A stretch of 43,373 nt of DNA from contig NZ_BJDL01000033.1 of assembly GCF_005405125.1 (NCBI RefSeq), positions 1-43,373 on the forward strand. The letters are read 5' to 3'. Under the pieces are notes generated by a model that saw nothing but the letters and a program-made list of their open reading frames with translations, did no database searches and had not been told where the DNA came from. This DNA is from Lactiplantibacillus songbeiensis (lineage in GTDB: Bacteria; Bacillota; Bacilli; Lactobacillales; Lactobacillaceae). Shown in pieces: positions 13,077-27,547 of this stretch. How positions within the stretch are numbered: the stretch's first letter is position 1; every line of letters begins with the position of its first letter. The translations under genes and the position numbers were made by a program.

Positions 13077-13081
13077 TAGTG

Positions 13082-13507: not shown

Positions 13508-13510
13508 ATG

Positions 13511-13572
13511 TAATTGTAATTATTATCAATTACAATTATAATTCACAATAATTTGTGCTTAAACACAAATTA
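13511..13572 (+). promoter_or_regulatory. recombinase promoter embedded in two perfect palindromes
   Basis: TTGTAA (13514-13519), 17 bp, TATAAT (13537-13542) is a near-consensus promoter. Its -35 and spacer coincide with an 11-bp perfect inverted repeat (TAATTGTAATT/AATTACAATTA, 13511-13521 and 13528-13538). A second 9-bp perfect inverted repeat (TAATTTGTG/CACAAATTA, 13549-13557 and 13564-13572) covers the transcription start. The arrangement suggests autoregulation or recombinase binding sites in front of the gene. Confidence 0.7.
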
Positions 13573-13594
13573 CTACTAATCAAGGAGTGACAAC

Positions 13595-14218
13595 ATGCAA
13601 CAGATAATTATAGGTTATGCGCGGGTCTCAACTGCTGAAAATCGGCAGGAACTTGGACTAGAGTTACAATTACGGGCCTTAAAAGATAATGCGTGTGATG
13701 TTATCTTTTCAGATCAGCTTTCAGGAAGCAATGATCAGCGGCCAGAATTTAATCAAGCGGTGACATTGGCTAAGAAAAAAGCCGCTGCGGGGTGGCAAGT
13801 TAAATTTATGGTGTATAAACTAGACCGATTATCGCGACGGACGGTGAAAATGATTACAACAATTGATGACTTAACGCAACATCAGGTACAAGTAATCTCG
13901 TTATGTGAACAACTTGATATGTCAACACCGACTGGTATTTTACAATATCAGATTTTGGCCACGTTTAGTGAGTATGAGTTAAATACGATTCGTCAACGCA
14001 CACGGGATGCTTTGGCAGAACTAAAGAAACATGGTCAAAAGTTAGGTCGGCCAAGGTTAGCAACTGATGTCGAGCAGCGTATCTGTCAGCTTTATCAAAT
14101 TAGTGATTATCCGGTAAAGATGATTGCTAAAGAGTGTCGGGTTGCCGTATCGACTATCTATAATGTGGCGAAGCGAAATCAGCTAAGTAGGCGTAAATCA
14201 GCCTTGACTAATCGTTAA
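13595..14218 (+). CDS. serine recombinase (resolvase/invertase family)
   Basis: A 207-residue site-specific recombinase. The nucleophile is Ser12 in GYARVSTAENRQ. The catalytic arginine block is YKLDRLSRR (around 74-82), followed by the E helix FSEYELNTIRQRT and the GRPR linker. A C-terminal Hin-type helix-turn-helix (MIAKECRVAVSTIYNVAKR, about 176-194) binds DNA. The size is that of small invertases and resolvases, not of large integrases. AAGGAGTG supports the ATG. Its substrate site is not known. It opens an accessory island and adjoins a pair of 17-bp inverted repeats. Confidence 0.93.
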   Translation: MQQIIIGYARVSTAENRQELGLELQLRALKDNACDVIFSDQLSGSNDQRPEFNQAVTLAKKKAAAGWQVKFMVYKLDRLSRRTVKMITTIDDLTQHQVQVISLCEQLDMSTPTGILQYQILATFSEYELNTIRQRTRDALAELKKHGQKLGRPRLATDVEQRICQLYQISDYPVKMIAKECRVAVSTIYNVAKRNQLSRRKSALTNR

Positions 14219-14316
14219 TTAATTATGATAATATAAACTAGCAACTTGATAGGCCACTAGTACAAAAAACGACCGTTTATTGTAGTTACGTACATATACA
14301 ACTTAATCCGCTTTCA

Positions 14317-14355
14317 AACCTTGCTAAAGCTTAATTTAGCAAGGTTCATTTTTTT
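14317..14355 (+). terminator. first terminator after the recombinase
   Basis: Perfect 12-bp stem AACCTTGCTAAA/TTTAGCAAGGTT with a 6-nt loop, then CATTTTTTTT. Confidence 0.88.
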
Positions 14356-14387
14356 CGACTGTTAAGTCCATTTAACGGTCGTTTTTT
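14356..14387 (+). terminator. second, tandem terminator
   Basis: CGACTGTTAA-GTCCAT-TTAACGGTCG (one wobble) followed by six T. The remainder of the gene-free stretch 14388-14558 shows no clear site except a ribosome binding site (GAGAGGAG, around 14537-14544) for the next gene. Confidence 0.8.
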
Positions 14388-14558
14388 GTAGTTATTTTTA
14401 AAAGTTGGGTTCGTAAATGTGAAAATAGTGAAAAGAGGTGGGAAAACCTACTTTATGGAACTATCAGCAGTGTAAAGCTTTTTTTAATAGTCATTTAACT
14501 GGCATCATAATTTGTTTAAGCGAGTTGGCACTCGTTTGAGAGGAGTAGTACGGAACGT

Positions 14559-15740
14559 ATGCGTATATGGAGAATTGGGTTGATCATGGGGATTTTAGGA
14601 CTGAGTGCGGTGGGTCTGGCTGGATGCCAATCGAAGCCACATGCAGCTACTAAGGTGCCATTAAAAGTTGCCATGCAAACCTATCAAGACAAAGATGGGC
14701 AAGATAAATTGACCTTTGGCAAGCACCATCGTTTTTGGCGGCAGGTTGTGACGCAATCAGGAACGGTTACGCGTGACCTGCAAACGGGAACTTACCAAAC
14801 GAAACGGCAACAGTTGATTTTAAACATTGATCAAACACAACGGGCTACTTACAAAAACAAGCAGGATCTAACAACTAACCAAGTCCCTTTAACCTTAAGT
14901 AATCAACAAGCCGGTGGTTACAATGAGCAGACAGTGCTGACTAAAACTGCTACTCAATCGGTGACGTTACAAGTTAAAGGCAACAAGTTAGTTGATCCGC
15001 AAACAGAGCAACCTTTAGCACGGCAAAAGCAGTTCTCAAACACAGGTGCCACAACGCTTAAACAAGTTAATCAGCAGTATACCAAAACCGGCGCCGATGC
15101 AGTTAACCAACGGACGTTTGTGGCTAAGTTACCGCAACAAACGCTATGGATTGCCTTCAATGGTGATCATACTTGGCAGATGCATGTGATTAATCGGCCA
15201 CAACGAACCGATACGTATGACCAAGGAACTTGGCAAGTTGACCATCAGCGATTACAGACTAAATCGACTGGTGCTATTCGGCAATTTAAGATTAAAGGTG
15301 CGGTTGTTAATCCGACCAATTATCAAAGCTTGACCGAGTTAACCGCTGCACAATTGGGCCGCTATCAGTTTAGTATCAACGGATCATACGTGCAGGTTAA
15401 GACGGCCGATAAGACAGTCAACTTACAGCGCTTAGCAACAATAGATATTAAAACTGTTGCAATGGCCCAGAATCAGTATTTGACGACGACAAAGCAAGTA
15501 TTGACGGCTAATAACCCGTTTAAGTCCCAAGCTGCCTTTAAAAATTGGTTGAATCAACATCATGCAACGACACAACAGCTTGCTAACAAGCAATCCTTTA
15601 AACAGGCGACTGGTTTGAAAGTGGTTTATGTTAGCGGGCCATTTGTGCTGGCTAGTGATGGTCAAGTGTATCAGCAACGCGTCACTGGCTGGGAAGTCGC
15701 TGGTGAACAGACGGCGGCGTTACCGATGATTAAAGATTAA
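14559..15740 (+). CDS. predicted lipoprotein, unknown family
   Basis: A 393-residue protein with a lipoprotein signal peptide: basic MRIWR, a hydrophobic core, and lipobox VGLAGC with Cys23 as the lipid attachment site. The mature part is Gln/Thr/Lys-rich and shows lipocalin-like patterns (TFGKHHRFWRQVV.., GTYQTKRQQLILNI, TWQMHVINRP..GTWQV), in which G-T-[WY] strands are followed by short beta segments. This suggests beta-barrel-like ligand-binding modules. I recognise no named domain. It is the first of a run of exported proteins and is not clearly a paralogue of the ones downstream. Confidence 0.75.
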   Translation: MRIWRIGLIMGILGLSAVGLAGCQSKPHAATKVPLKVAMQTYQDKDGQDKLTFGKHHRFWRQVVTQSGTVTRDLQTGTYQTKRQQLILNIDQTQRATYKNKQDLTTNQVPLTLSNQQAGGYNEQTVLTKTATQSVTLQVKGNKLVDPQTEQPLARQKQFSNTGATTLKQVNQQYTKTGADAVNQRTFVAKLPQQTLWIAFNGDHTWQMHVINRPQRTDTYDQGTWQVDHQRLQTKSTGAIRQFKIKGAVVNPTNYQSLTELTAAQLGRYQFSINGSYVQVKTADKTVNLQRLATIDIKTVAMAQNQYLTTTKQVLTANNPFKSQAAFKNWLNQHHATTQQLANKQSFKQATGLKVVYVSGPFVLASDGQVYQQRVTGWEVAGEQTAALPMIKD

Positions 15741-15768
15741 GTGTGTTTGTTATTTTGGAGGAATAGAT

Positions 15769-15819
15769 ATGAAAGAAAATAGACAAGTCACTGCAATGGG
15801 TAAGCGGCGATTAAATTGA
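15769..15819 (+). CDS. 16-codon leader ORF coupled to the next lipoprotein gene
   Basis: An ATG at 15769 behind an excellent TTGGAGGA site opens a 16-residue frame (MKENRQVTAMGKRRLN). Its TGA (15817-15819) overlaps the TTG start of the following lipoprotein gene by two bases. That TTG has no ribosome binding site of its own, so ribosomes probably reach it by termination-reinitiation. Alternatively, a single indel has split the n-region of a longer signal peptide, since the peptide is basic as such regions are. Confidence 0.5.
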   Translation: MKENRQVTAMGKRRLN

Positions 15820-17003
15820 AAATAAAGACAATTATTACAGCTAGTATGTTAGCTGGCTTACTACTCAGTGGCTGTCAGGCTAAAGACCCAGTTAAAAAAC
15901 AAGCTACTTCAGCATCCAACACGAGTTCTAAAGTTGCTAAGCAATCGGTTGCCAGTTCTAAGCAGGTGAGTTCAACTAAAAAAGAAACGCCACCAGCATC
16001 TGAAATGACTACCGTGTTGTCAAAACTATCAGCCAAGTTACCAGAAGATGATAGTACACAAAATAATGGTGAAGTGACTTACTCGCAGTTCTACTATCAA
16101 AATGATAACTGGCATTGGAAGATGTCATCGAAGCAACGTGGAACGATTATTGGTGGCAAGGTTCAGTCGTTAACCAAAACAGATGCCAGCTATAAATTAG
16201 CGATGGTCACGGATAGTGGGGAACAGTATCAATTGACTCTGGATTATGATCTGGATGAAAACGCCGAATATTACACCGTTACTGCTAAAGCTAATGGGCA
16301 AAGTGTTAAAGGCACCTATATTCTGGGCGATAATAGTGCAGCTTGGACAGCTGGGGTTCCGACTACCTTACGAGGAACTTGGTCGACTGATTTTTATCAA
16401 GCCGATACCGGTAATAAGAAATATCCTTACGTTCGGACTCGTTTTCATTTTAGTGATCAAAGCCTAGTTGGTAATACAAATACTTATACTAAAAATTATA
16501 CGTTTGGTATGGAGGGTGCTGGTTGGGGTGCTAATCAGGATCCAGAATATAAGCAATTAAATGCAACAACGTATTTATTAAAAACTCATGGAGTAAATGG
16601 CAATTTGTTCGAAGTTTATCTTGCTAAGCTAAACGGCCGTTCATTATCGTTAGGACTTACTAATGCACCAGCAACCTTTACTAAGGTATCAAGTTCACCA
16701 ACCAAAAGTCTAGGCTACGATGATAATCCTGCTAAAAATTTAACTGAAAATCAGGTTGAAGATTGGATTAGCCGTCATATTACGGATTTTAATCATACGA
16801 CACATGATGTTAAGAAGGCCGGATACATGTTTAGTAAGGACAAAAAAGGCATTTTAAATATTGATGTTCGCGATGTTGATTATAAGTACACCGTCCCATC
16901 TATCGGCTTTTTCAGGATTACTAAAGATGGTGTGCTGGAGGCTGAAGATATGGCAGATGGTGGTCAGTCATGGTATCCAGTCTCAGATGACCCTAATCGG
17001 TAA
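15816..17003 (+). CDS. lipoprotein with the shared NN-E-V-T-Y-S module, a lipocalin-like middle and a C-terminal domain
   Basis: A 395-residue predicted lipoprotein. The signal peptide ends in LLLSGC (Cys20), then a Ser/Lys-rich spacer (21-62). Residues about 66-170 form a module found repeatedly in this cluster, with TQNNGEVTYSQFYYQ, an aromatic W-x-W pair (WHWKMSS) and QRGTI. Residues about 184-300 look like a lipocalin-type segment (LRGTWSTDFYQ..). A C-terminal domain from about 305 (NLTENQVEDW) is shared with the lipoprotein gene at 17659. The start is a TTG coupled to an upstream mini-ORF. The function is unknown; a cell-surface location is strongly indicated. Confidence 0.8.
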   Translation: MKIKTIITASMLAGLLLSGCQAKDPVKKQATSASNTSSKVAKQSVASSKQVSSTKKETPPASEMTTVLSKLSAKLPEDDSTQNNGEVTYSQFYYQNDNWHWKMSSKQRGTIIGGKVQSLTKTDASYKLAMVTDSGEQYQLTLDYDLDENAEYYTVTAKANGQSVKGTYILGDNSAAWTAGVPTTLRGTWSTDFYQADTGNKKYPYVRTRFHFSDQSLVGNTNTYTKNYTFGMEGAGWGANQDPEYKQLNATTYLLKTHGVNGNLFEVYLAKLNGRSLSLGLTNAPATFTKVSSSPTKSLGYDDNPAKNLTENQVEDWISRHITDFNHTTHDVKKAGYMFSKDKKGILNIDVRDVDYKYTVPSIGFFRITKDGVLEAEDMADGGQSWYPVSDDPNR

Positions 17004-17208
17004 GGTGATTCTAAAGTATATGTCATGAAACTAAAGGAATAGTAATGCCCTTGGATGATGGTAATGGTGTTTTTGAGATTAGACTTCGTCGGCATATAAA
17101 AAGAAAAGTATATGGGTAAAAGTATTGAATGTTAAAACGAGATGTGTTCATCAATTGGTTTGTGATCGACAACATCCGCAATGGTAAGTTCCTTTGAAGG
17201 GGCAATTC

Positions 17209-17643
17209 ATGAAATTAAAAAGATGGCAATATTTAGTAATGTTAGCAGCGTTACTTTTCGGATTAGGTGCTGTGGGAAGCTTTAGCAACACTAACACAGC
17301 GACACCAACTGTTAATGCCGCAACTAAGCATTATATTAAGTGGCACGGTAAATATTATCGTTCAAAGTATACTTTGAAAACGATGCGTAAAAAGAAGCAT
17401 TTGAAATATAAATTTTATGGCTATGGTTATGACAATAAATTTGTAGGAATTACTAAGTCTGCGATTACTGGTTGGTATTCAGCCAATCCAGCATCTAAGA
17501 AAGAAGTTCATGTTAAGCATCATAAAGGCACCTATGCAAAGTTTGATACTGATCCTGTTAGTATTGGTCATACAGTTCATTTTGTGAATCTCAAAACTGG
17601 CCACGTTTATAAATATGAATACGACGAATATTACGGTAATTAA
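17209..17643 (+). CDS. small secreted basic protein
   Basis: A 144-residue precursor with a standard signal peptide (MKLKRWQYLVMLAALLFGLG..) and likely cleavage after VNA, around residue 36. The mature protein of about 108 residues is rich in Lys, His, Tyr and Gly (KWHGKYYRSKY, KFYGYGYDNKF) and lacks cysteines. The frame is open from TTG 17194, but the ATG at 17209 has AAGGGG upstream and gives a normal signal peptide. No family is recognised; the aromatic and basic composition suits binding to the cell wall or a polyanion, which is inference. Confidence 0.7.
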   Translation: MKLKRWQYLVMLAALLFGLGAVGSFSNTNTATPTVNAATKHYIKWHGKYYRSKYTLKTMRKKKHLKYKFYGYGYDNKFVGITKSAITGWYSANPASKKEVHVKHHKGTYAKFDTDPVSIGHTVHFVNLKTGHVYKYEYDEYYGN

Positions 17644-17658
17644 TAAGGGGATAGCACG

Positions 17659-18528
17659 ATGCAAAAATTGATTAAGATCAGTGCGTTATCGTTAATAAGT
17701 TTACTGATTTTAAGTGGCTGTGGGAAGCAAGCCGCACAGCCAGCTAAAAACAGTTCATCTAGTAAGAGTAGTCAGGTTGTAAAAGCTGCCAGTAGTAAAG
17801 CTAGTAGTCGTCAGTCCAGTCAATCAGTAACGCAGGCTAAAACAACTAAGCCAGCTAAAACAGATACAGTGGGCGATGCCTTGGCTAACTTAACGACTAA
17901 GCTACCAGAAGATACGGCTACTCAGAATAACAATGAGCTGACGTATTCACGTTTCTATCAAAGTAATCAGCACTGGTATTGGGAGTTAAGTTCAAGTAAA
18001 CGCGGCGTATTTGCAGAAGGCCAAGTGAAGTCACTTAGTAAACAAAGCGGTGGCTACTTGTTAAGTATGCAATCCAGTGCTGGGCAACAATATCAGTTGC
18101 AGCTAACATGGTTGGATGATCAACATCAATCCTATCAAGTACAGACGTCATATTTGAGTATTAGTGGTAAGTATAGTGCTGACTATGCTAATCAAAGTAG
18201 TCAGTCATCTGCTAATGGCTCTAACGTGGATACTAAGAATTTGACGGAAGACCAATTAATTGACTGGGCTTGGTTACATTATGCGCCTAATGTTAGATCT
18301 GGTTTTGGTAGAGAAGACTTTTTCTTTATGTTTAACCAAGAGGATGATGGGACGGTTTCGGTTGATATTCGCGAAAACCATGATAGTAAACATATGCGTG
18401 CAGCTCATATGGCGCGGAGTGTTGCACCACGTGTGGCTACGTATCGGGTAAATGCCAAAGGTGAGTTGGAGTCCTATGATGTTGCTCATAATTCATATAA
18501 GGTAGTTGCGACTCAATACGGCGAATAA
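17659..18528 (+). CDS. lipoprotein with shared module and C-terminal domain
   Basis: A 289-residue paralogue, shorter than the lipoprotein encoded at 15816. The lipobox is LILSGC (Cys21), then a Ser/Lys/Gln-rich spacer. The shared module spans about 72-175 (TQNNNELTYSRFYQ.., WYWELSS, KRGVF), and the C-terminal domain from about 194 (NLTEDQLIDW, ..VSVDIRENHD.., YRVNAKGELESYDV). The lipocalin-like middle domain of its relative is absent, so the two differ by a clean domain gain or loss. AAGGGGAT precedes the ATG. Confidence 0.8.
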   Translation: MQKLIKISALSLISLLILSGCGKQAAQPAKNSSSSKSSQVVKAASSKASSRQSSQSVTQAKTTKPAKTDTVGDALANLTTKLPEDTATQNNNELTYSRFYQSNQHWYWELSSSKRGVFAEGQVKSLSKQSGGYLLSMQSSAGQQYQLQLTWLDDQHQSYQVQTSYLSISGKYSADYANQSSQSSANGSNVDTKNLTEDQLIDWAWLHYAPNVRSGFGREDFFFMFNQEDDGTVSVDIRENHDSKHMRAAHMARSVAPRVATYRVNAKGELESYDVAHNSYKVVATQYGE

Positions 18529-18553
18529 TTGACCGGTTAGGAGCGGGGGCCCA

Positions 18554-19456
18554 ATGAAAAAAGTAGTTTTAATTGTCACTGGAATAATTGTTGCGGTGTT
18601 ACTAATCTTTGGCGGGTTGCAGTGGATTGGTAGTCAATCTAATCGTTCATCAGTGACTAATACAGCCCCACAAACCAGTGAGTCTCAGTCTAAGCCATCA
18701 AAGAGCAGTAGTTCAATGACAACAAGTCAGTCTAGTTCGCAAAAAGTGCGTGTCACTCATGCTAAGGCAGCTAGCCAAGCTAATGAGTTATCGATGAACA
18801 GGAATACGTTAACTGATTTAAGCCATTCTCGGGCTGAGCAAGTGAGTACGATTAGCAATCGTGAGGTGACTTTTTCTGAGTTTTGGGAAAATAACGGGAA
18901 CTGGTACTGGACGTTGTCATCTGATCAACGTGGTAGTTTTGAAAATACCAAGATTACGGCGGTGACTAAGCAGGGTAACCAGTATCAAATGAACGCTGTT
19001 ACGACTACTGCTCCTAAGGATGTTCACTTAGTTTTAAACGTGGTTAAGTTGGCTGGTGGCTATGAGTTACAAACGGACTTTCAGCATATTCGTGGTATTT
19101 ATGATAATGGACAATCCGTCGATAACGTTAGCGACCATGGTAGTGATCTATTAAGTGACCACTCAGAACAAGCAACTGAAGGCAAGTTGACCCGGGATAA
19201 TCATGAGGTGACGTATTCTGACTTTTATCAAGCTAGCGATGGCTGGCATTGGCGATTGCATTCAAAAGAGCGCGGGACGATTGAAGACGGTCGAATAAGA
19301 GCAATGAAGACGTATGATGATATGCCATATCTTTATGTAACGAGTGCCGTTGATCCTAACCAGACGAAGTATGTGTTGCAGTTTGATGTCCATAAAAATG
19401 GTGAGTATTGGATTCAAACTAATTATCAGCATCTAGAGGGCCAATACTTGCCTTAA
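18554..19456 (+). CDS. membrane-anchored protein with two copies of the shared module
   Basis: A 300-residue protein. It has one N-terminal membrane helix (residues 4-24, no lipobox cysteine) and a Ser/Thr/Gln linker (28-80). Module A covers about 95-184 (SNREVTFSEFWENN, WYWTLSS, QRGSF) and module B about 206-298 (DNHEVTYSDFYQ, WHWRLHS, ERGTIEDG). Each module ends in [QL]-[TN]-[DN]-[FY]-Q-H-[IL]-x-G-x-Y. The extracellular part is thus a tandem repeat of one domain. It is closely paralogous to the next gene, including at the DNA level over the membrane helix. Confidence 0.8.
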   Translation: MKKVVLIVTGIIVAVLLIFGGLQWIGSQSNRSSVTNTAPQTSESQSKPSKSSSSMTTSQSSSQKVRVTHAKAASQANELSMNRNTLTDLSHSRAEQVSTISNREVTFSEFWENNGNWYWTLSSDQRGSFENTKITAVTKQGNQYQMNAVTTTAPKDVHLVLNVVKLAGGYELQTDFQHIRGIYDNGQSVDNVSDHGSDLLSDHSEQATEGKLTRDNHEVTYSDFYQASDGWHWRLHSKERGTIEDGRIRAMKTYDDMPYLYVTSAVDPNQTKYVLQFDVHKNGEYWIQTNYQHLEGQYLP

Positions 19457-19490
19457 GGCTACTGTGTATTGAAGAGAAAAAGGGTGCCAT

Positions 19491-20423
19491 ATGAAAAAAG
19501 TAATTTTAGTCGTGACTGGGATGATTATTACTGTGTTACTAGTCTTTGGTGGTTTGGAATGGATTGGTAGTCAACCGGATCATTCAGATGCGGCGAGTCA
19601 AGCTAGTTCGTCTAAGGCAACTAGTCAGCAATCGTCTAGTCAATCATTGGTCAGTAGCAGTGCGGTTAGTGAAAGTAGTTCATCAGCAGTTGCGCAATCT
19701 AGTGTGAGTGCTACGGATAGTGAGACTGGGGAGAAGTTATCCGCTGATGATAGCAGTGCGTTGGATGATTTGAAGGGAACACGGGCGGAAGAGACTAGCA
19801 CGATTAATAATAAAGAAGTGACATTCTCACAATTCTATCGGGCCAGTGGTTCCTGGAATTGGGTCATTCAATCACAACAACGCGGTACGATTGCAGTAAC
19901 TGATATAACTTCGATTAATAAGCAAGGTAATCAGTATCAAATGAAGGCTCACGAGGCTGATTCGAATGTGACTGATAATTTAACCGTTAATGTGCACTCA
20001 GATGGAAGCTATGATTTACGCTCCAATAGTCTGAATTTGCATGGCGAGTATGGTAGTCAGGCAGATAATCCTAATAAAATTAGTCATGATGTCAGTGAAT
20101 TAATCGATATTCATGGTGAGAAGGTAAAGGAAGATTCATCAACGCGGAATAATGGTGAAATCACGTATTCGGAATTTTACGAAGGTAGTGATGGTGGTCA
20201 TTGGCGAATTAGTTCTAATAAACGAGGCACGATTGAAGACGGTCGAATTGATTCAATTGAAAGTGTTGATGTGGGGGCTGCGCTGTTGCATATGACAAGC
20301 GATGTAGATCCTAGTAAACCGTCATATGATTTATATGTGATGCCAGCTAATAATGCTGATTTCTTCTATGAAATTCAGACGGATTATCAGCACTTGCATG
20401 GGATGTATGACAATCCAGGGTAA
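19491..20423 (+). CDS. membrane-anchored protein with two copies of the shared module (paralogue)
   Basis: A 310-residue protein. The N-terminal helix is nearly the same as in the upstream paralogue (MKKVILVVTGMIITVLLVFG), then a long Ser/Ala/Gln linker (31-90). Module A covers about 104-187 (INNKEVTFSQFYRA, WNWVIQS, QRGTI) and module B about 214-305 (RNNGEITYSEFYEG, HWRISSN, KRGTIEDGRID). Module B of the two paralogues is more alike than A is to B within one protein, which fits duplication of a two-module gene. The gene follows its paralogue by 34 nt. Confidence 0.8.
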   Translation: MKKVILVVTGMIITVLLVFGGLEWIGSQPDHSDAASQASSSKATSQQSSSQSLVSSSAVSESSSSAVAQSSVSATDSETGEKLSADDSSALDDLKGTRAEETSTINNKEVTFSQFYRASGSWNWVIQSQQRGTIAVTDITSINKQGNQYQMKAHEADSNVTDNLTVNVHSDGSYDLRSNSLNLHGEYGSQADNPNKISHDVSELIDIHGEKVKEDSSTRNNGEITYSEFYEGSDGGHWRISSNKRGTIEDGRIDSIESVDVGAALLHMTSDVDPSKPSYDLYVMPANNADFFYEIQTDYQHLHGMYDNPG

Positions 20424-20453
20424 AAGACTATTAAAGGGGGAAGACAGGCTGAC

Positions 20454-20927
20454 ATGGATAGTAGTACAAAAACTTTTTTAGACATATTAGTCGCGATTCC
20501 TAAAATTTATTGTTTGGCATTAATTTTGTTTATTGTTATCAAACTATTTCAGAATACGTTAACTGCTGGCGACTTTAAACAATTTAAAAGCTGGTTTAGC
20601 AAGATTGATATCGGATACCTGGTGATTAGTTTCTTGTTTGTAGTAGCGGAAAACATAGCAGAAAATATGCTAGATTGGGTCATAATGTTACTGTTATTAA
20701 TTCTTGTTAAGACGTTGAGTGCTAGTGCTTTGCGGCTATATCATCGACTTTCAATTGTCATGATACTGTATGTTATCGAACTGTTTTCGTTATTGGCTCA
20801 TTTTGATACACCGGTATTATTGACGGAAACTTTGTGGGTCATTGAAATTGGAATCATCATGTTTTCAATGGCTTTTTATCTGCTATTAGTAATTCGATTA
20901 CATCATGACAGGGGAAAATTAAGGTGA
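20454..20927 (+). CDS. four-helix membrane protein, unknown
   Basis: A 157-residue, strongly hydrophobic protein with four predicted membrane helices (about 10-32, 52-68, 70-90 or a merged segment, and 98-118, with a last one about 126-148). The ends and loops are short and basic. No motif is recognised. AAAGGGGGAAG upstream supports the ATG. It lies in the same direction as the module proteins and the next gene starts 6 nt after its stop, so it may be part of the same export-protein operon. Confidence 0.6.
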   Translation: MDSSTKTFLDILVAIPKIYCLALILFIVIKLFQNTLTAGDFKQFKSWFSKIDIGYLVISFLFVVAENIAENMLDWVIMLLLLILVKTLSASALRLYHRLSIVMILYVIELFSLLAHFDTPVLLTETLWVIEIGIIMFSMAFYLLLVIRLHHDRGKLR

Positions 20928-20933
20928 TTAATT

Positions 20934-21320
20934 TTGGATGAAAAGAAAAAGCGTAGTTTTAAAGATGAGTCATTAAACTTGGATGAAGAATTTGATCAAG
21001 AATATGCCAAAAAGAAAATAGACCAAGCTAATCAAAAAGTGCATCATGCTCATCATTTTTACGGTGGTTCATATGTCGTTGTTTTTAAAATTGCCAATGT
21101 TATCGTTGCTTTGGCTGTTGCAGGGTTGATCCTATTCATAGCGCAACTCTGGAAAGATGACTTTACCTATGGCTTGATACCGGCAATTGTAGTCGGACTC
21201 ATTATTTGGTATGTGAATAATTTTATCGTCAAGCAATTTGAAAATATCAGTATTATTGCTAAAAATTCGACTAAAATTTTGAATATTTTAGCGGATCAAG
21301 AAGCGCGGAAGCATCAATAA
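20934..21320 (+). CDS. two-helix membrane protein, unknown
   Basis: A 128-residue protein starting from TTG at 20934 with AAGGTGA 7 nt upstream; the ATG four bases later is out of frame. It has a charged N-terminal region (1-45), two membrane helices (about 52-72 and 80-100) and a C-terminal helical tail. This topology is shared by small DUF4282-like membrane proteins, but I cannot confirm the family. It is probably co-expressed with the preceding membrane protein. Confidence 0.6.
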   Translation: MDEKKKRSFKDESLNLDEEFDQEYAKKKIDQANQKVHHAHHFYGGSYVVVFKIANVIVALAVAGLILFIAQLWKDDFTYGLIPAIVVGLIIWYVNNFIVKQFENISIIAKNSTKILNILADQEARKHQ

Positions 21321-21321
21321 A

Positions 21322-21471
21322 AAGAATTCAAGTAATTATTAAAAGGGAGATCTTTAGCATGTCATTGAACAAATTAGTTATTGCATCGTTGGCGGGAGTT
21401 TCGTTATTAGGGGGCATGGTTGTTACTAGTACACCGGCGATGGCGAAGTCTAAGACGTTTAAGTACTATGA
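21322..21471 (+). repeat. direct repeat, copy 1 (leader plus signal-peptide DNA)
   Basis: About 150 bp, from the leader to about codon 37 of the secreted protein, recur nearly unchanged at 22961-23110 (offset 1639), whereas the DNA beyond diverges. Both copies share AATTATTAAA, the ribosome binding site, the TTTAGC spacer before the ATG and the KSKTFKYY codons. Confidence 0.85.
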
Positions 21472-21982
21472 AGGTAACGATAAAGTTGACGCACTCCATA
21501 AAAAATATAAAAGTATGGATAAATATACTTTAAATAAAACATTTAAAGTTCAGTATTCAGGAATACTTAAGCTTAATCATTTATATGTCTTTCATGTTTC
21601 CCCAAAACACAGTAAATATCAAACTTGGGTTAAAGTAACTGGAAAATTAATTAATAAGGGTTATGGTCAGATTGCATTGGGCATTACTCATACTAATAAT
21701 GAAGGCAAGTATCCAGGTGTTATCAACTCACATGTATCATTAAAAAACGCTGTTCCCTTTAAAGCAGCGCAGAGCATATCATACGGACCTATCGGATGTC
21801 CTTTTTACGAAGAAAGACGAGTTAATTCAAAGAGTTCACAGTCATTTGATTTGATTTTGCACACAAAGCAAGCTACTAAAAAGTTAGGAACTTCTACGCT
21901 GGTGTTACGAACAGCAGGTATCCCATCTGATGGTAGTAAAGTTGCTAACAATACAAAAGTGGTTAAGTTAAATTTGAATTAG
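21359..21982 (+). CDS. secreted protein, paralogue of the one at 22998
   Basis: A 207-residue precursor with signal peptide MSLNKLVIASLAGVSLLGG.. and likely cleavage after AMA (about residue 29). The mature part is Lys/Ser/Thr-rich and contains NHLYVFHVSPKHSKYQTWVK and a GPIG segment. No family is recognised; the pattern of an extracellular beta-rich domain (K[YF]QTWVKV[TS]G) resembles ligand-binding domains of secreted lactobacillus proteins. AAGGGAGA lies upstream. The first 110 coding bases and the leader are almost identical to those of the second copy. Confidence 0.75.
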   Translation: MSLNKLVIASLAGVSLLGGMVVTSTPAMAKSKTFKYYEGNDKVDALHKKYKSMDKYTLNKTFKVQYSGILKLNHLYVFHVSPKHSKYQTWVKVTGKLINKGYGQIALGITHTNNEGKYPGVINSHVSLKNAVPFKAAQSISYGPIGCPFYEERRVNSKSSQSFDLILHTKQATKKLGTSTLVLRTAGIPSDGSKVANNTKVVKLNLN

Positions 21983-22173
21983 TTAATATCAAGATAATGC
22001 TAATTCTATCTAGAGACTAGAATCGTTTTACGTATTATCCGTTAAGCTTGACTGGAAACTTTAATCCCTTGGGTAATCTAAAAAATGGAAATAACGACTG
22101 ATGTTGAATCGTAGTAAGTCAATATAAAACTGTTGTTTCTTATACTTTCTGATTATATGTATGGAGGTGAATG

Positions 22174-22893
22174 ATGAGAATATTAGGTGCGTCCAAAAGC
22201 CCCAAAGTGGCTTTAATCATGGCTATTTTTCTTGTTAGTATTACATCGAATGCTTGTGGAAGAAGCTCACAAACTTCTAGTTTGTCGAATCACAGTACTA
22301 AAATTAGCCGTGCAAAACGTATTACTCAGTCTGAATCAAGGGATGAAAGTCAATCAAAAGAAAAAGCGAACAAAGAATCCGAATCTAGCCATTTAGATTA
22401 TCTTGCTGAAAGCAGATTGGGCGATGCTTATGATGAAGATATATATGGGAAAGATAAGACAAGCAATGAACAAATGTATTCAATATTTGAAATCATAGGT
22501 GGTAAGAAGGTTTTGCGGGCGATTTCGGCTAATAATGGTGATGTAGGCGTTAGTGTGTATGTAGTTGGGTTAACGCGAGTTGGACAATCGACAATGAAGT
22601 ATAAAATTGATGCTAAAGACCGGGCTACTGGTGAACAGGGTATCATTTACTTTACTTGGCTTGATGAAAGTTTATCACGTTATAAAGTATATTCGGATGA
22701 CTATAATATTGATAGAGTATATACGGTTAAGCATGACAGATCCGTCATGAAAAACGCTCAGAGTAAGCTTCAAGAAAGTCGTCGAGATGAACAGGTCTCG
22801 TCGGATCGAGAGGCTAACGTTGATAATGACGATGGAGAATCGATTAAAATGCCTGGTGATACGCAGGAGGGGAAACAGTCCAATCCATTTTAA
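22174..22893 (+). CDS. predicted lipoprotein, unknown
   Basis: A 239-residue protein with a signal peptide ending in a lipobox-like SNAC (Cys28). A long Ser/Glu/Arg/Lys spacer (30-75) and a globular middle (about 90-185; EQMYSIFEIIGGKKVLRAIS, VSVYVVGLTRVG, RVYTVKHDRS) follow, then a hydrophilic acidic tail. The second of two tandem ATG codons (22174) is chosen because GGAGG then sits 6 nt away. It is inserted between the two secreted paralogues. Its AT-rich composition and rare-looking codon use are consistent with acquired DNA. No domain is recognised. Confidence 0.65.
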   Translation: MRILGASKSPKVALIMAIFLVSITSNACGRSSQTSSLSNHSTKISRAKRITQSESRDESQSKEKANKESESSHLDYLAESRLGDAYDEDIYGKDKTSNEQMYSIFEIIGGKKVLRAISANNGDVGVSVYVVGLTRVGQSTMKYKIDAKDRATGEQGIIYFTWLDESLSRYKVYSDDYNIDRVYTVKHDRSVMKNAQSKLQESRRDEQVSSDREANVDNDDGESIKMPGDTQEGKQSNPF

Positions 22894-22960
22894 AATACAC
22901 GAGTATTTTTTAAGATCTGTTATATTTTAGTGGATTAATAGACGCTAGAATATCAGGAAC

Positions 22961-23110
22961 AAGAATTTAAGCAATTATTAAAGAGGAGATTTTTAGCATG
23001 TCATTGAACAAATTAGTTATTGCATCGTTGGCAGGAGTTTCGTTATTAGGGGGCTTGGTTGTTACCAGTACACCGGCGATGGCGAAGTCTAAGACTTTTA
23101 AATACTATGA
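22961..23110 (+). repeat. direct repeat, copy 2 (leader plus signal-peptide DNA)
   Basis: Second copy of the 150-bp leader and signal-peptide block seen at 21322-21471, with only scattered substitutions. Confidence 0.85.
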
Positions 23111-23612
23111 CAATAATAGTTCCAAGCATTATAAAAAGTATCAAAGCATGAACAAATACACGTTAAACAAAAAATTCACTGTACGATATTCTGGAACAGT
23201 TAAGATTAATCATATTTATGTTTTTCATGTTTCACCAATGCGCAGTAAATACCAAACTTGGGTAAAAGTAAGTGGTAGGTTAACTAATAACAGCACTGGT
23301 CGTATTGCTTTAGGAAAATCGGCACATTACAGCGATAGTGATGATTACTATTATGTTCCTAATTCAGAAATATCATTAGCAACGAGTGTACCGCTGAAGG
23401 CTTCGAAAGCATTGTCGTTTGGACCAATTGGTGATTCTTGGAATGATGGGTTAGGATCGCATTACTGGGAAAAGTTTGATTTGATTTTACACACAAAGTC
23501 GGCAACTTCAAAATTGGGAGCATCTACTTTAAAGTTTCGAACATCATATGAAGGTGAAACTTCTAATAAGGTTATTAATACTACTAAAACCATTAAGCTA
23601 AACTTGAACTAG
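22998..23612 (+). CDS. secreted protein, paralogue of the one at 21359
   Basis: A 204-residue precursor with the same signal peptide (one substitution, Met20 to Leu) and the same KSKTFKYY start of the mature part. After that, identity drops to perhaps half, with conserved blocks NH[IL]YVFHVSP, KYQTWVKV[ST]G, [SF]GPIG and KFDLILHTK. The ends match (TKTIKLNLN versus TKVVKLNLN). Strong GAGGAGA precedes the ATG. The stretch between the two copies holds an unrelated lipoprotein gene. Confidence 0.75.
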   Translation: MSLNKLVIASLAGVSLLGGLVVTSTPAMAKSKTFKYYDNNSSKHYKKYQSMNKYTLNKKFTVRYSGTVKINHIYVFHVSPMRSKYQTWVKVSGRLTNNSTGRIALGKSAHYSDSDDYYYVPNSEISLATSVPLKASKALSFGPIGDSWNDGLGSHYWEKFDLILHTKSATSKLGASTLKFRTSYEGETSNKVINTTKTIKLNLN

Positions 23613-23640
23613 TCAAGTAGTTGTTGGAAAAAATGGTTAT

Positions 23641-23671
23641 GAGGGATTAACTGGTGTCTCTCGTTTTTTTT
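23641..23671 (+). terminator. terminator after the secreted paralogue
   Basis: GAGGGAT/GTCTCTC stem with wobbles, followed by eight T. Confidence 0.7.
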
Positions 23672-23756
23672 CTGTGAGTCTAGAAAAGGAATTAAGCAAT
23701 CTGATTCTTATAAATGTAAATCAGGGATGGTCTAAAGTAGTGTTGGAGGATGTAAA

Positions 23757-24293
23757 GTGAAAAAATTAATATCAAGTTTAATACTGTGTATTTCAGTGTT
23801 TGGTATTGCAGTCTGCCTAAATAATGTCAATGTATCAGCTAGTCGGCATTCAAGTGTTGTGACTAAAAAAGTATCAAAGCGTAAAACGGTTTCAAAGAAA
23901 AAGAAGGCTAAAAAGTACGGCTACAAACTGACAAATCTGAAAGCAAAAATAGTGCCGTACAAAGTTAAAAAGGGAACGAAAATTAACTTGGTAGAGGTGA
24001 CTGGAGAATTAAAGGTTTCCAAAAAATCTTTAGCAAAGAAATATGAAGTAACTGGAATGAATTATGTAACTTGTGACGGAGAATGGACTGACGACGTATC
24101 TAAAGATAATACTTTTGCTACGATGGAGCTTGGTGTCCTTAAAAGAACAAAGACAACCCTATTCTCAAAGTCATCACCTAAACATGTTTGGGTTACAGCC
24201 ATTAGTGATACTGGCGGTGACTATACTACAAAATATGGATTTTATAAATTATCAGCCACAAGAAAAGTAGCAGTTAAACAAGCTAAGCGTTAG
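23757..24293 (+). CDS. secreted lysine-rich protein, unknown
   Basis: A 178-residue precursor beginning at GTG 23757 behind TTGGAGGATG. The signal peptide ends around NVSASR (about residue 29), followed by a very basic stretch (RHSS..KKVSKRKTVSKKKKAKK, about 30-59). A compact domain (KLTNLKAKIVPYKVKKGTK.., NYVTCDGEWTDDVS) and a basic tail complete it. Lysine clusters suggest attachment to teichoic acids or another anionic polymer. No family is recognised. Confidence 0.65.
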   Translation: MKKLISSLILCISVFGIAVCLNNVNVSASRHSSVVTKKVSKRKTVSKKKKAKKYGYKLTNLKAKIVPYKVKKGTKINLVEVTGELKVSKKSLAKKYEVTGMNYVTCDGEWTDDVSKDNTFATMELGVLKRTKTTLFSKSSPKHVWVTAISDTGGDYTTKYGFYKLSATRKVAVKQAKR

Positions 24294-24381
24294 TACAAGT
24301 GGAAAAGCCTCAAAAGATAAGTAGTACTAGCAAATAGTGTGGTCATTGATTTGTTGATTCACTTTAGTAGAGTAGCACACA

Positions 24382-24433
24382 TTACACAAAAGAGGCCTAA
24401 CAATCTGATGGTTGTTGGGTTTCTTTTGTGTAA
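24382..24433. terminator. long hairpin, probable bidirectional terminator
   Basis: A perfect 12-bp outer repeat TTACACAAAAGA/TCTTTTGTGTAA (24382-24393, 24422-24433) encloses an inner CCTAACAA/TTGTTGGG stem. The inner stem followed by TTTCTTTT reads as a terminator on the plus strand, and the outer A/T tracts allow the minus direction as well. Confidence 0.65.
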
Positions 24434-24457
24434 CCAGCATGTAGCGTAAAAATCGGT

Positions 24458-24722
24458 TTACTTTTTAGGAGTGGTGTCGGGGTTTATCGGGATACGTAGG
24501 TCTAAATCATTACTTTGTCCAATATTGAACTCAGGATAATTCGATTACTCAAATAAAAATCATCGACAACTTTCATTTTATATTTAGATGAGTATCCGAT
24601 TCTATATTGAAAATAGGCTAATAATGATGATGCTTGGATGAACGTGTCAAAATAATATAAAAATGGAACTTGAGTTATATCACGTAATTACAGTTAGAAA
24701 GCCTGATCAGGTGACTATTTAC
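24458..24722 (-). pseudogene. decayed minus-strand gene fragment, unidentified
   Basis: On the minus strand two frames join into a protein-like sequence. The first runs from about 24722 (..YVITQVPFLYYFDTFIQASS.. through AYFQYRIGYSSKYKMKVVDDF, open to a stop at 24502). After a frame change near 24545-24556 comes YPEFNIGQSNDLDLRIPINP with a stop at 24458. The composition is natural for a protein, but there is no start codon or ribosome binding site. It seems to be the 3' remnant of a gene whose family I do not recognise. Confidence 0.4.
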
Positions 24723-24769
24723 TTATAGATTACGAGCTTGTAGTGGGCTATCCAATGAAAGACGGAGGT

Positions 24770-24907
24770 ATGGCGCGTATAATGATGATATTGGATAATC
24801 TGTTTTATTTGTCCCAACAAGCATGGTGGCAAACGCTCAAAGATATTTTTACGTTATTGGCAGGCTTAGTAGCATTAGTGACACTGGTGTTAAACACTAA
24901 AGGCTAG
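24770..24907 (+). CDS. small hydrophobic peptide, holin-like or type I toxin-like
   Basis: A 45-codon frame with a single C-terminal membrane helix (TLKDIFTLLAGLVALVTLVL) and a short polar end (NTKG). GGAGG lies 1 nt before the ATG at 24770, which is too close, and 13 nt before the in-frame ATG at 24782, so the exact start is unclear. Size and topology fit the small holin-like or Fst/TxpA-like toxins of lactobacilli, but homology is unproven. The preceding stretch 24434-24769 otherwise holds only the decayed minus-strand gene. Confidence 0.4.
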   Translation: MARIMMILDNLFYLSQQAWWQTLKDIFTLLAGLVALVTLVLNTKG

Positions 24908-24923
24908 ACGTTTAAATAATACG

Positions 24924-25289
24924 ATGAGTGTTGTTGATTTCTATAATCAAGATGTTCGTCAGTGTTTAATTCGAACTTTCAAGGGTTATAAGATACTGTT
25001 ACATCAACAAGCAGATATTCATCAAGGTGAGAAAAACGCTTTGGCAGAATTGGCAGATGTACCGGAAGCTGTTCATTGTTTAGATGAATTAGGGCTATAC
25101 TTGATTCATTCGGTTGATAAACCGCTAGTTTTAACCGTTATTTCTAGTGAGGCTAGCCGTTTCTTAGAAGATGAAGATATTTTTGAAATTGTTGATTTAT
25201 TGGTAGCGACTTCTAGTTCGATTGGCATCAGAAGCTTATATCGGGATTTAAAAATGGAGCGTGATTTGCATGCAAGATTCAATAACTAA
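24924..25289 (+). CDS. hypothetical protein, 121 residues
   Basis: A cytosolic, mainly helical, slightly acidic protein (SVVDFYNQDVRQCLIRTFKG.., LDELGLYLIHSVDKPLVLTV, DIFEIVDLLVATSSSIGIRS). No signal peptide, cysteine motif or known fold is recognised. The upstream ribosome binding site is poor. The start of the next gene (25270) overlaps its 3' end by 20 bp, indicating a coupled pair. Location next to a toxin-antitoxin locus suggests plasmid- or island-derived DNA. Confidence 0.6.
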   Translation: MSVVDFYNQDVRQCLIRTFKGYKILLHQQADIHQGEKNALAELADVPEAVHCLDELGLYLIHSVDKPLVLTVISSEASRFLEDEDIFEIVDLLVATSSSIGIRSLYRDLKMERDLHARFNN

Positions 25290-25506
25290 ACAGGCCTCGC
25301 AACATCAATCAACTGAAGATAAAAGGACGCCGTCAATTGACGAAGAATCATTGGCTGCGGTCAATCGGATGCGTCGTGAACTCAGACAGCCGCCGTTACG
25401 GATGGCTAAATATTTGGAACTAATCCGAACACCAGATCAACGAATGGCGCGGATGTTGGCGCGACCACATTATCGTTTTCATTGGTGGCAGCGACTGTTT
25501 GGATGA
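25270..25506 (+). CDS. hypothetical basic protein, 78 residues
   Basis: A small Arg-rich protein (NRMRRELRQPPLRMAKYLEL.., RMARMLARPHYRFHWWQRLF) with a polar N-terminus. The ATG at 25270 is chosen over the GTG at 25261 because GGAG (about 25255-25258) is then about 11 nt away instead of 2. It overlaps the end of the preceding gene. The basic, aromatic tail suggests nucleic-acid or membrane contact. No family is recognised. It stops 17 nt before the -35 element of the type III antitoxin promoter. Confidence 0.55.
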   Translation: MQDSITKQASQHQSTEDKRTPSIDEESLAAVNRMRRELRQPPLRMAKYLELIRTPDQRMARMLARPHYRFHWWQRLFG

Positions 25507-25522
25507 GTGTGAGGCGTTAGCC

Positions 25523-25551
25523 TTGTAGTTTGTTAAATAACCCAGTATAAT
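25523..25551 (+). promoter_or_regulatory. promoter of the type III antitoxin RNA
   Basis: TTGTAG (25523-25528), exactly 17 bp, TATAAT (25546-25551). The predicted start, about 25558, falls at the first antitoxin repeat. Confidence 0.85.
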
Positions 25552-25558
25552 TCAAAAT

Positions 25559-25663
25559 GAAATAAGAGATTCGCTGCTATAAGTGCGACCGATAAAATAA
25601 GAGATTCGCTGCTATAAGTGCGACCGATAAAATAGGAGATTCGCTGCCAAAAGTGCGACCGAT
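25559..25663 (+). repeat. three 35-bp tandem repeats of the antitoxin
   Basis: Units 25559-25593, 25594-25628 and 25629-25663. Units 1 and 2 are identical except for the first base. Unit 3 has three changes (AAGAG to AGGAG, and CTATAAG to CCAAAAG in the presumed loop), while the pairing TCGC and GCGA blocks are unchanged. Confidence 0.97.
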
Positions 25664-25666
25664 ATT

Positions 25667-25702
25667 AGCGGGGGTGACAACATGGTCATCTGCCGCTTTT
25701 TT
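25667..25702 (+). terminator. terminator between antitoxin RNA and toxin gene
   Basis: AGCGG..TGAC-AACATG-GTCA..CCGCT followed by six T. Its position between repeats and toxin gene is diagnostic of type III loci, where partial read-through sets the RNA:toxin ratio. Confidence 0.88.
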
Positions 25703-25718
25703 CGTTAAGGGGGATAAC

Positions 25719-26204
25719 GTGGAGTTAGGGTATGTTGATGAGGGGTATGTTAATTATTTACGTCAAGCTGACCACCGGGTATTGATGAATAAGCATCAGC
25801 GTCCTTATCTTGGGGCAGTCTTACAAGTAGCGGGGGGACTGTACTTTGCGCCACTGGAAACGGCCAAGTCAGGTAAACGAGTGAGTAATCAAATTTCAGT
25901 TAAAGTTTGGGATGAACAGGGAGAACAGGATCAACCGATTAGTTATATCTTGCTGAATGACATGATACCGATTGATTTAGTATATTGGCATCCCATCAAG
26001 ATGGATCAATTGCGGTTAACTCAACCGGTTCGTTATCGGATGTTGTTGAAAGAACAGCATTTTATGCGGAAACATGTCGCACAAATCATGAATAAAGCGG
26101 AGCGAGTCTATAGAAATCGCACTCAAAAGAAAATTCCATTCATCAATCAGATGTGCTTGGATTTTAAGTTACTTGAACGTGCAGCAAAAAAATATCAGGA
26201 TTAA
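25719..26204 (+). CDS. toxN: type III toxin, ToxN/AbiQ-family endoribonuclease
   Basis: A sequence-specific endoRNase that arrests growth when freed from its RNA antitoxin; relatives act in phage abortive infection. Starting from GTG 25719 (AAGGGGGA 5-6 nt upstream) it has 161 residues, close to the usual 165-200. Family features are visible: the N-terminal YVDEGYVNYLRQADHRV, RPYLGAVLQVAGGLYFAPL (residues 28-46), the active-site-like LETAK (46-50) where many members have L-[ST]-S-P-K, LLNDMIPID (78-86), YRMLLKEQHFMRKH..IMNKAERVY, and the C-terminal CLDFKLLERAAKKY (from Cys146). The frame is open from 25653, but that part overlaps the terminator. The Ser-to-Thr change at the presumed catalytic position is worth checking. 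Confidence 0.9.
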   Translation: MELGYVDEGYVNYLRQADHRVLMNKHQRPYLGAVLQVAGGLYFAPLETAKSGKRVSNQISVKVWDEQGEQDQPISYILLNDMIPIDLVYWHPIKMDQLRLTQPVRYRMLLKEQHFMRKHVAQIMNKAERVYRNRTQKKIPFINQMCLDFKLLERAAKKYQD

Positions 26205-26207
26205 ATA

Positions 26208-26498
26208 ATGGCTAAGAACATTGTTGATCTTTCATCAATTGATAGTAAGTCTTATCACCAGTTAGTACTGACTGCTAAGGCTGAGGCTAATATTGATGAA
26301 GTATCTAATAAATTGGAATTTCAAACCATGGGAATTCAATCAGGTACGATTGATGACTAGCAGTTAATTGGTATATTTGCTAATTCAATTAAAACCTACT
26401 GTATGGCCAATGCCATGGCTTTTGAGCGTTGCAAACAAAGTAGAGATTATGTTCAACTAGAGCGACTAATTCAAGAATGGGGTTATAAGGATGAGTAA
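26208..26498 (+). pseudogene. 96-codon gene interrupted by one in-frame amber codon
   Basis: MAKNIVDLSSIDSKSYHQLV.. reads to a TAG at 26358-26360 and continues in the same frame (QLIGIFANSIKTYCMANAMA.., RDYVQLERLIQEWGYKDE) to TAA at 26496-26498. The rest of the frame has no other stop, and the start lies 4 nt after the toxin stop. The stop therefore looks like a recent nonsense mutation. If read as is, a 50-residue peptide is made. Family not recognised; the composition is helical and cytosolic. Confidence 0.6.
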
Positions 26499-26673
26499 AA
26501 TTACTGGAATTTCTGATGCTGAAATCGATCGAATCTTCCAAGAACATGTAGATTGGGGCGGCGTGCACATGACGAAGGAAAAAGTAAACAAAGCGTTACA
26601 TGCCGCTTGGGAGAAGAAGCGTTTAGCAGAAGCCACCGCCCAAGCTAACGACAATCAAAAACCAAGCAAGTAA
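26491..26673 (+). CDS. small hypothetical protein, 60 residues
   Basis: A helical, charged protein (GISDAEIDRIFQEHVDWGGV.., KEKVNKALHAAWEKKRLAEA) whose ATG overlaps the end of the preceding interrupted frame by 8 nt. A weak ATAAGG lies upstream. No known family is recognised. It is the last gene of the accessory stretch before yebC. Confidence 0.55.
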   Translation: MSKITGISDAEIDRIFQEHVDWGGVHMTKEKVNKALHAAWEKKRLAEATAQANDNQKPSK

Positions 26674-26732
26674 GCCTAGTTTCATTTCAACGTAATCGCA
26701 CTAAGAATTCCGCCTGTTCACGGTTCCAAACC

Positions 26733-26761
26733 TTGAATTTAGCCGGTTTATTTGTTAAACT
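26733..26761 (+). promoter_or_regulatory. putative yebC promoter
   Basis: TTGAAT (26733-26738), 17 bp, TAAACT (26756-26761), about 55 nt before the yebC ATG. A short palindrome ATGTTTAAACAT follows around 26770-26781. Confidence 0.5.
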
Positions 26762-26815
26762 ACTAACCGTATGTTTAAACATAAATCGAATAAATAAAAG
26801 AAAAGAGGAGTCACA

Positions 26816-27547
26816 ATGTCAGGACATTCAAAATGGCATAACATTCAAGGGCGTAAAAACGCTCAAGATGCTAAACGTGGGAAGATTTTCCAAAAAATCT
26901 CTCGTGAACTTTATATGGCTGTAAAAGCCGGGGGTCCTGATCCAGATTCTAACTCGAATTTGCGGTTGATCATGGATAAGGCCAAAGCTGCCAACATGCC
27001 TAAAGATAACATCAAACGGGCAGTTGATAAAGGTAGTGGCTCCGGTGCGGCGAACTACGAAGAAGTTGTCTACGAAGGCTACGGCCCTGGTGGTATTGCG
27101 GTGTTAGTTCACGCTTTGACGGATAACAAGAACCGGACCGCAGCTGCGGTTCGTTCAGCGTTCACCCATCATGGTGGGGCCTTAGCTGCAACCGGTGCGG
27201 TTAGTTACATGTTTGATCGGAAGGGTTACATCGTCATCGAACGTGCTGATCTTGACACGGATGAAGATACGATGTTAATGGATGTTTTAGATGCTGGTGG
27301 CGATGATTTACAATCTAGCGACGAAGCCTTTGAAATTTACACTGACCCTAAACAATTAGCAGAAGTTCGGGATGCGTTACAAGAAAAAGGGTATACTTTA
27401 GCAACTGCTGAATTAACCATGATTCCTGAAAACTTAACCGATGTTCCTGCTGATAAAGTTGAAAAGTTACAACACATGCTTGAAGAACTCGAAGATAACG
27501 ACGACGTATCAGATGTCTACGAAGCCGCTAACTTCCCAGAAGACTAG
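26816..27547 (+). CDS. yebC: YebC/PmpR-family protein (transcription/translation factor)
   Basis: A 243-residue cytosolic protein starting with the invariant [20 protein letters not shown] block, followed by the three-domain YebC fold ([35 protein letters not shown].., [10 protein letters not shown]). The family was long annotated as a DNA-binding regulator (PmpR). More recent work assigns YebC-type proteins to easing ribosome stalling at proline-rich sequences; which role applies here cannot be read from sequence. AAGAGGAG supports the ATG. It marks the return to conserved core DNA. Confidence 0.97.

Follow-up and report, generated by a model that had tools for sequence, protein, structure and literature searches.

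The region 25523-26204 of the window, i.e., of the whole stretch of 43,373 nucleotides from Lactiplantibacillus songbeiensis (contig NZ_BJDL01000033.1) that was analyzed in this study, raises the question of whether it holds a complete ToxIN/AbiQ-like type III toxin-antitoxin (TA) locus, as a preliminary description made from the letters alone had proposed. It is indeed an intact type III TA locus of the ToxIN family, consisting of a putative promoter, three 35-nt ToxI units, a terminator and toxN (Table 1). The ToxN fold, the repeat array, the terminator, a pseudoknot supported by covariation and the predicted catalytic positions were all found.

Layout of the locus and its toxin

The promoter had been called near-consensus. 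This is correct for its perfect TATAAT, but the -35 hexamer TTGTAG agrees in only three of six positions and the promoter is absent from the list of the promoter scan, which demands 4/6 in each hexamer, so that the wording was too strong. The three direct repeats lie head-to-tail, as described (95% matches and a score of 189 with Tandem Repeats Finder; identities of 100/97/89% in a second repeat comparison), and the three bases by which unit 3 differs from units 1 and 2 all fall outside the TCGC/GCGA core. The terminator after the repeats reaches -19.7 kcal/mol (z -3.66), a stability that none of 200 shuffles attained. The GTG-started frame runs from 25719 to a TAA ending at 26204; a longer version of the frame could start from a GTG at 25653, within unit 3, but the relatives begin at the equivalent of 25719. 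Right after toxN, a short ORF (26208-26487), for which profile searches yielded nothing above any family cut-off, has its frame broken by a TAG at 26358. The 3′ half of a 60-aa ORF (26491-26673) is also present in L. dongliensis, the breakpoint being at 26588/26589.

Table 1. Features of the toxIN locus and of the segment carrying it (window coordinates).
Feature	Position	Strand	Details	Basis
Putative toxIN promoter	25523..25551	+	-35 TTGTAG 25523-25528 (3/6), -10 TATAAT 25546-25551 (6/6), spacer 17	sequence
ToxI unit 1	25560..25594	+	stem 1 25565-25567 with 25576-25578; stem 2 25571-25574 with 25585-25588	repeat calls, covariation, covariance-model match
ToxI unit 2	25595..25629	+	same sequence as unit 1 in the register used	repeat calls, covariance-model match
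ToxI unit 3	25630..25664	+	A->G 25635 and T->C 25648 (stem 1), T->A 25650 (loop)	alignment, covariation, covariance-model match
Intrinsic terminator between toxI and toxN	25667..25702	+	hairpin approx. 25667-25697, T-run 25697-25702	terminator scan, folding
Ribosome-binding site	25707..25713	+	AAGGGGG, 5 nt 5′ of GTG	sequence
toxN	25719..26204	+	161 aa, ToxN/AbiQ-family toxin; predicted catalytic region R28, L46-E-T48-A-K50
Accessory segment	13404..26588		toxIN near right end, adjoining yebC (26816-27547)	no blastn match in three congener loci; lower G+C

The toxN product scored 103 bits in Pfam (cut-off 25). An AlphaFold2 model built on a 10-sequence alignment reached a pLDDT of 90.8 and superposed on four ToxN/AbiQ crystal structures, by which the predicted fold of the window protein is certainly that of ToxN; a single-sequence AlphaFold2 run was useless (pLDDT 37.7). 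The closest solved toxin is ToxN of Bacillus thuringiensis (PDB 4ATO; sequence 4.9e-21; Foldseek 5.9e-13, TM 0.86). Among the NCBIfam models, no ToxN/AbiQ model was matched, and an identity as TenpIN was rejected, as the TenpIN model, whose cut-off is 90 bits, gave a score of 13.8.

In alignments to solved structures, E47-T48-A49-K50 falls on T52-S53-P54-K55 of ToxN-Pa and on L-S-Y-K of AbiQ. The AbiQ serine aligned with T48 is presumably Ser51 (chain index 52), the catalytic residue, which places T48 at the position of the catalytic hydroxyl (AbiQ Ser51/ToxN Ser53) and K50 at that of Lys55; R28 would occupy the Lys33 position, provided the gap is placed before it. As AbiQ Ser51Thr is described in the available text of PMC5086642 as retaining RNase activity, Thr48 is compatible with catalysis. 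For ToxN-Ec, Thr52Val and Lys55Ala are each stated to abolish toxicity (PMC8860590, in part). The Lys55 position is conserved in the window toxin. The Thr52 position is E47, which is a point against the ToxIN reading, though not a disqualifying one, because AbiQ has a leucine there and Thr52 is not family-wide. LETAK, suggested as the possible mark of a divergent subfamily, belongs to a clade trait, [LF]-[EV]-[ST]-x-[KR], found at all 13 loci of the close Lactobacillaceae group. LETAK itself recurs in the second toxin of the same genome and in L. dongliensis, next to LESAK, LESRK, LESSK, LVTAK, FETSK, FETAK, LETAR and LESKK in the rest of the group. It is not general to the family, since more distant Lactobacillaceae ToxNs carry LSSPK, LGSPK, LSSYS or LSHQT. 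No close orthologue of the window toxN was found.

The ToxI pseudoknot

At ten further Lactobacillaceae loci, units of the same pseudoknot class stand before toxN. Their spacing is 35 nt, except for 36 nt in L075 and in one unit of L066, and for L074, which has a single unit. From these loci and the window, 23 distinct units (11 loci, three of them with truncated toxN) were aligned without gaps. Left out were the third unit of L066 (36 nt) and L073, which has no array on its contig; the units of L070 are those of the source genome's second ToxIN locus and were entered once. The structure .....[[[...((((.]]]......))))......, an H-type pseudoknot, was paired in 97.5% of the 161 cells of this alignment, with changes on both sides in five of seven pairs and 18 double-change cells. 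Pairing, double-change cells and covariation score were each reached by none of 500 shuffles, the weaker measures by 3/500 (number of double-change pairs) and 400/500 (number of pair types), with statistics that ignore the relatedness of the sequences; registers slid as a control paired only 35-57%. Stem 2 occurs as UCGC/GCGA, UCUC/GAGA, UUGC/GCAA, CCGC/GCGG, UCAC/GUGA and CUCC/GGAG. In the window, stem 1 joins A-G-A with G-C-U in units 1 and 2 and G-G-A with G-C-C in unit 3, and thus two of the three differences of unit 3 represent one compensatory A-U to G-C change.

A further set of 12 units, from the window, L004, the toxin-less array L100, a Carnobacterium plasmid and a Staphylococcus epidermidis plasmid (four rows common to both sets), was paired to 85.7% overall. 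Its stem 2 was paired to 100%, with double changes at all four pairs; shuffles reached the weaker measures in 246/500 (pair types) and 60/500 cases (double-change pairs). The third stem-1 position formed a standard pair in none of these 12 units and therefore probably either makes an A.G contact or stays unpaired. Folding single 35-nt units for a pseudoknot, the check proposed beforehand, was uninformative: minimum free energies (MFE) were no better than those of shuffles (z -0.26 to -0.71), which is expected from a method blind to pseudoknots. The covariation, found in both stems among the 23 units and in stem 2 of the further set, nonetheless shows by comparative analysis that the window repeats fold as an H-type pseudoknot. 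No Rfam family was found at gathering score over the locus, where the one chance hit was to a snoRNA (10 bits vs 55).

Taken as a whole, the window locus is very probably a chromosomal ToxIN module that works in the way proposed for the family. One promoter would drive the ToxI array, and a leaky terminator would let some transcripts reach toxN, resulting in an excess of antitoxin. ToxN, a MazF-like endoribonuclease, would process the precursor by cleavage in its A-rich linkers (AUAAAAUAAG), releasing H-type pseudoknots of about 35 nt; by analogy with the family, these would assemble head-to-tail with ToxN to form an inactive complex. A phage that halts host transcription or depletes ToxI may then free ToxN, which would cleave A-rich RNAs of phage and host and so abort the infection. 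RNase activity and phage defence of the window locus are thereby inferred from characterized relatives. For a Bt-like ToxN, phage defence is not guaranteed, since the available text of PMC5449768 gives no abortive phenotype for the B. thuringiensis ToxIN against over 100 phages; for the window locus it appears probable, not certain.

Genomic setting and alternative readings

The locus sits in a 13.2-kb insertion beside yebC, which is in agreement with the accessory island described before: 13404-26588 has no blastn match in the compared loci of three congeners (L. dongliensis, G003 and G018), and its G+C is 0.33-0.45 compared with 0.46-0.49 on the flanks. L. dongliensis (G004) shows 93% identity on both flanks and carries a different 151-aa ORF in place of the insertion. 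The variable site lies between the gene at 13079-13402 and yebC. A DNA query against 20 other congeneric genomes left the toxIN part unmatched apart from one genome with a related repeat array; it matched the yebC side and gave two short matches elsewhere, one of them being that array. The insertion's cargo includes several secreted- or lipoprotein-like ORFs that, by eye, resemble each other (14559-20423 and 21359-24293). Further to the left, an imperfect 91-nt tandem repeat (11881-12146, 2.9 copies) lies between a regulator gene and the gene at 12216, and is also found in L. dongliensis.

A second intact ToxIN is encoded in the same genome (L001, C1:114959-115423, minus strand), with a toxin 43% identical to that of the window and two units whose stem 2 reads UCUC/GAGA; L. 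dongliensis holds a near-identical copy. Given their different stem sequences, the two systems probably do not cross-neutralize. No further arrays were listed in the source genome by the unit covariance model among the 150 of 925 first-look candidates scored.

Within the genus, four of 21 genomes had a PF13958 match; at family level the count was 15 of 397 (14 above the cut-off) and at order level 15 of 395 (13 above the cut-off), in samples that overlap. The 23 match rows in the 397 family genomes included seven with stops and several fragments. ToxN relatives occurred on 88 plasmid records. Scans for related loci with the window toxin sequence alone gave no match; an alignment-based query recovered 11 genome loci and one viral contig (L077), which has the same size as the contig of the genome locus L076. 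Of ten order-level loci, the motif script placed only two, neither of which is in the RNA counts, and only L028 entered the protein alignment. The DNA of 24300-26815 had no match in the plasmid and phage collections.

Could the locus be a non-working remnant in a degrading island, like the arrays without intact toxin in congener G005? The TAG in the adjacent downstream ORF points in this direction, as do the G005 arrays, with a toxN C-terminal remnant (L099) or no toxin (L100), the seven of 23 family rows with stops and the truncated toxN frames of L068, L074 and L075 among the loci used. The window toxN, however, is uninterrupted over 161 codons, has a ribosome-binding site and keeps Thr48, Lys50 and Arg28, while stem 2 is kept in all three units and stem 1 of unit 3 by its compensatory pair; decay is therefore improbable here. 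That the repeats arose by chance beside an unrelated gene, or form its leader or riboswitch, might be argued from the lack of an Rfam family at gathering score, but is refuted by the covariation and fold results and by the ten other loci in which such units precede toxN; it can practically be dismissed.

A more serious alternative concerns the role of the module, which might be mainly addiction and stabilization of the island rather than phage defence. The serine recombinase at the left end of the insertion (13595-14218) and the plasmid-borne relatives are in line with this idea, against which stands that the characterized ToxIN-Pa, ToxIN-Ec and AbiQ are reported to abort phage infection (PMC5086642 and PMC9391042, available text). 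Stabilization as the main role appears unlikely, although less so than decay, and the two roles are not mutually exclusive.

ToxI-like units without a toxin, and known systems

The window ToxIN is a genuine and complete module of a known type; the surprise lies in a by-product, ToxI without toxin. In bacteria, congener G005, which has no PF13958 match, carries two such arrays. L099 (G005:C139, 2467-2536, minus strand) has two units, with no more of toxN downstream of them than its C-terminus in decayed form (3e-9 as the best tblastn value when L099 and L100 were searched). L100 (G005:C125, approx. 2193-2300), the only array in the genus matched by the window DNA query (74%), has three diverged units and a terminator; its stem 2 is fully paired in each unit (UCGC/GCGA, UCCC/GGGA, AUUC/GAAU), and no toxin remnant was found there.

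In phages, the pattern GGTGATTNNCTACCN{1,4}AAGTG was searched in IMG/VR and found in 20 stretches, or 15 once near copies were merged. By rough estimate, a collection of this size could yield about as many chance matches to the pattern alone. Nevertheless, the three stem-2 pairs that it leaves free were completed in 19 of the 20 (14 of the 15 merged), where about 1 in 32 would be expected by chance. One of the 20 records is, judged by its length, phiTE itself (L103, 142,349 bases). Fourteen were searched whole for PF13958 with no match, by a method that does not prove absence, and an exact search of viral contigs for the window's own unit type gave none. When a 39-nt unit was searched against 50,697 phage records, 127 gave a match at E up to 1, and in 107 of these the match covered at least 80% of the unit; among the 60 matches listed, only phiTE is annotated as pseudo-ToxI. 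At 15 phage loci (L120-L134, with the same rIII site represented four times), stem 1 was always complete (once with a G-U), no unit had fewer than three of the four stem-2 pairs, and none lay in an annotated gene, apart from the annotated pseudo-ToxI of phiTE itself. tRNA genes flank the unit on both sides in L125, L126, L128, L130, L131 and L134 (approx. 501-540) and in L080 (459-482), which are unrelated lytic phages; Klebsiella pzk-kv7 (L125) and Pectobacterium DU_PP_IV (L131) have two tandem units.

Phage T4 carries the unit GGAGATTCACTGCCTTAGTGTGAGCTAAAT between rIII and 30.9 (L136, NC_000866.4 128500-132500, approx. 2251-2281, minus strand). A unit lies 3′ of rIII in nine of the 14 phages looked at, close to rIII in T4, T2, RB51, VR26, JK36 and P896, and some 70-90 nt or more further away in CkP1, KPV15 and EI. 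PhiZZ23 has a degenerate unit at this site, the flanks of RB69, F2 and SF are continuous without one, and HY01 has other sequence. Besides T4, T2 and RB51, those with a unit at the rIII site are some Mosigvirus, Gaprivervirus, Karamvirus and Klebsiella T4-like phages, and no feature is annotated at this place in the phage stretches examined. Most enterobacterial units keep CUAG after stem 2, where C27 and U28 were found necessary by Blower et al.; the phiTE pseudo-ToxI is described there as being without them (PMC3475682, available text).

It appears possible, if somewhat doubtful, that ToxI pseudoknots travel without toxin, gained and lost as a cassette, and that the phage and bacterial units serve as decoy antitoxins against ToxINs of the matching stem type. 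According to the accessible part of PMC9391042, a plasmid-borne toxIN strongly restricts T2 and T4 and RB69 less, RB69 resistance being credited to TifA. The restricted T2 and T4 carry the unit and the less restricted RB69 does not, which counts against a decoy role. Since its stem type differs, the T4 unit may be the counterpart of a different ToxN; it may also have a role other than that of a decoy. No report of these toxin-less phage units was found in the literature searched, which comprised sources other than preprints.

The locus adds a well-formed ToxIN to the food-related genus Lactiplantibacillus, for which literature listings showed no experimental work on type III TA systems. The original type III classification (Blower 2012, NAR) may, reportedly, list Lactobacillus loci. 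With its two dissimilar ToxINs, the genome is useful for orthogonality tests. The larger value lies in the alignment that the locus enabled: from it came a ToxI pairing rule, supported by covariation, that covers these Lactobacillaceae and the Carnobacterium and Staphylococcus plasmids and that then brought to light the toxin-less ToxI-like RNAs of T4 and other phages. The extent of such escape routes is a question that Blower et al. did not settle (PMC3475682, available text). If the decoy reading were true, the ToxI pairing code of such loci would be under attack by RNA mimics far beyond the single phiTE case.

Compared with known systems, the window locus resembles the B. thuringiensis ToxIN (PDB 4ATO) in having it as closest solved toxin and in its repeat array, which for B. 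thuringiensis is given as approximately 2.9 repeats of 34 nt (PMC5086642, available text). The toxins are, however, 28-30% identical, LETAK stands against an aligned L-TSRNDK in 4ATO, and the window unit measures 35 nt. Identity drops to 24-25% for AbiQ of Lactococcus lactis (AbiQ/antiQ, PDB 4GLK) and to 23-24% for the Pectobacterium atrosepticum and Escherichia coli ToxINs (PDB 2XD0, 7D8O), where the ToxI-Pa unit measures 36 nt and Thr52-Ser53-Pro54-Lys55 takes the place of Glu-Thr-Ala-Lys. Much closer are the Lactobacillaceae ToxINs of Levilactobacillus koreensis (two loci), enshiensis, mulengensis and cerevisiae, Lactiplantibacillus nangangensis and dongliensis, and Lentilactobacillus parakefiri, with toxins 40-49% identical (parakefiri stood outside this alignment, with 52% over 67 residues in a separate search) and the same motif and pseudoknot classes. 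Unlike the window, most of them have GGU/ACC as stem 1, and the enshiensis and parakefiri toxins are truncated. The stem-1 form [AG]GA/GC[CU] is shared by the window, G001 (L004) and the G005 array L100, with A.G at the third position in all but one unit. The toxin-less phage RNAs found here are of the same kind as the pseudo-ToxI of phiTE, which is stated to be inactive as a single unit (PMC3475682, available text), but whereas this RNA has GAC after stem 2 (positions 27-29), units of the VR26/JK36 type have CUAG and that of T4 has GCUA.
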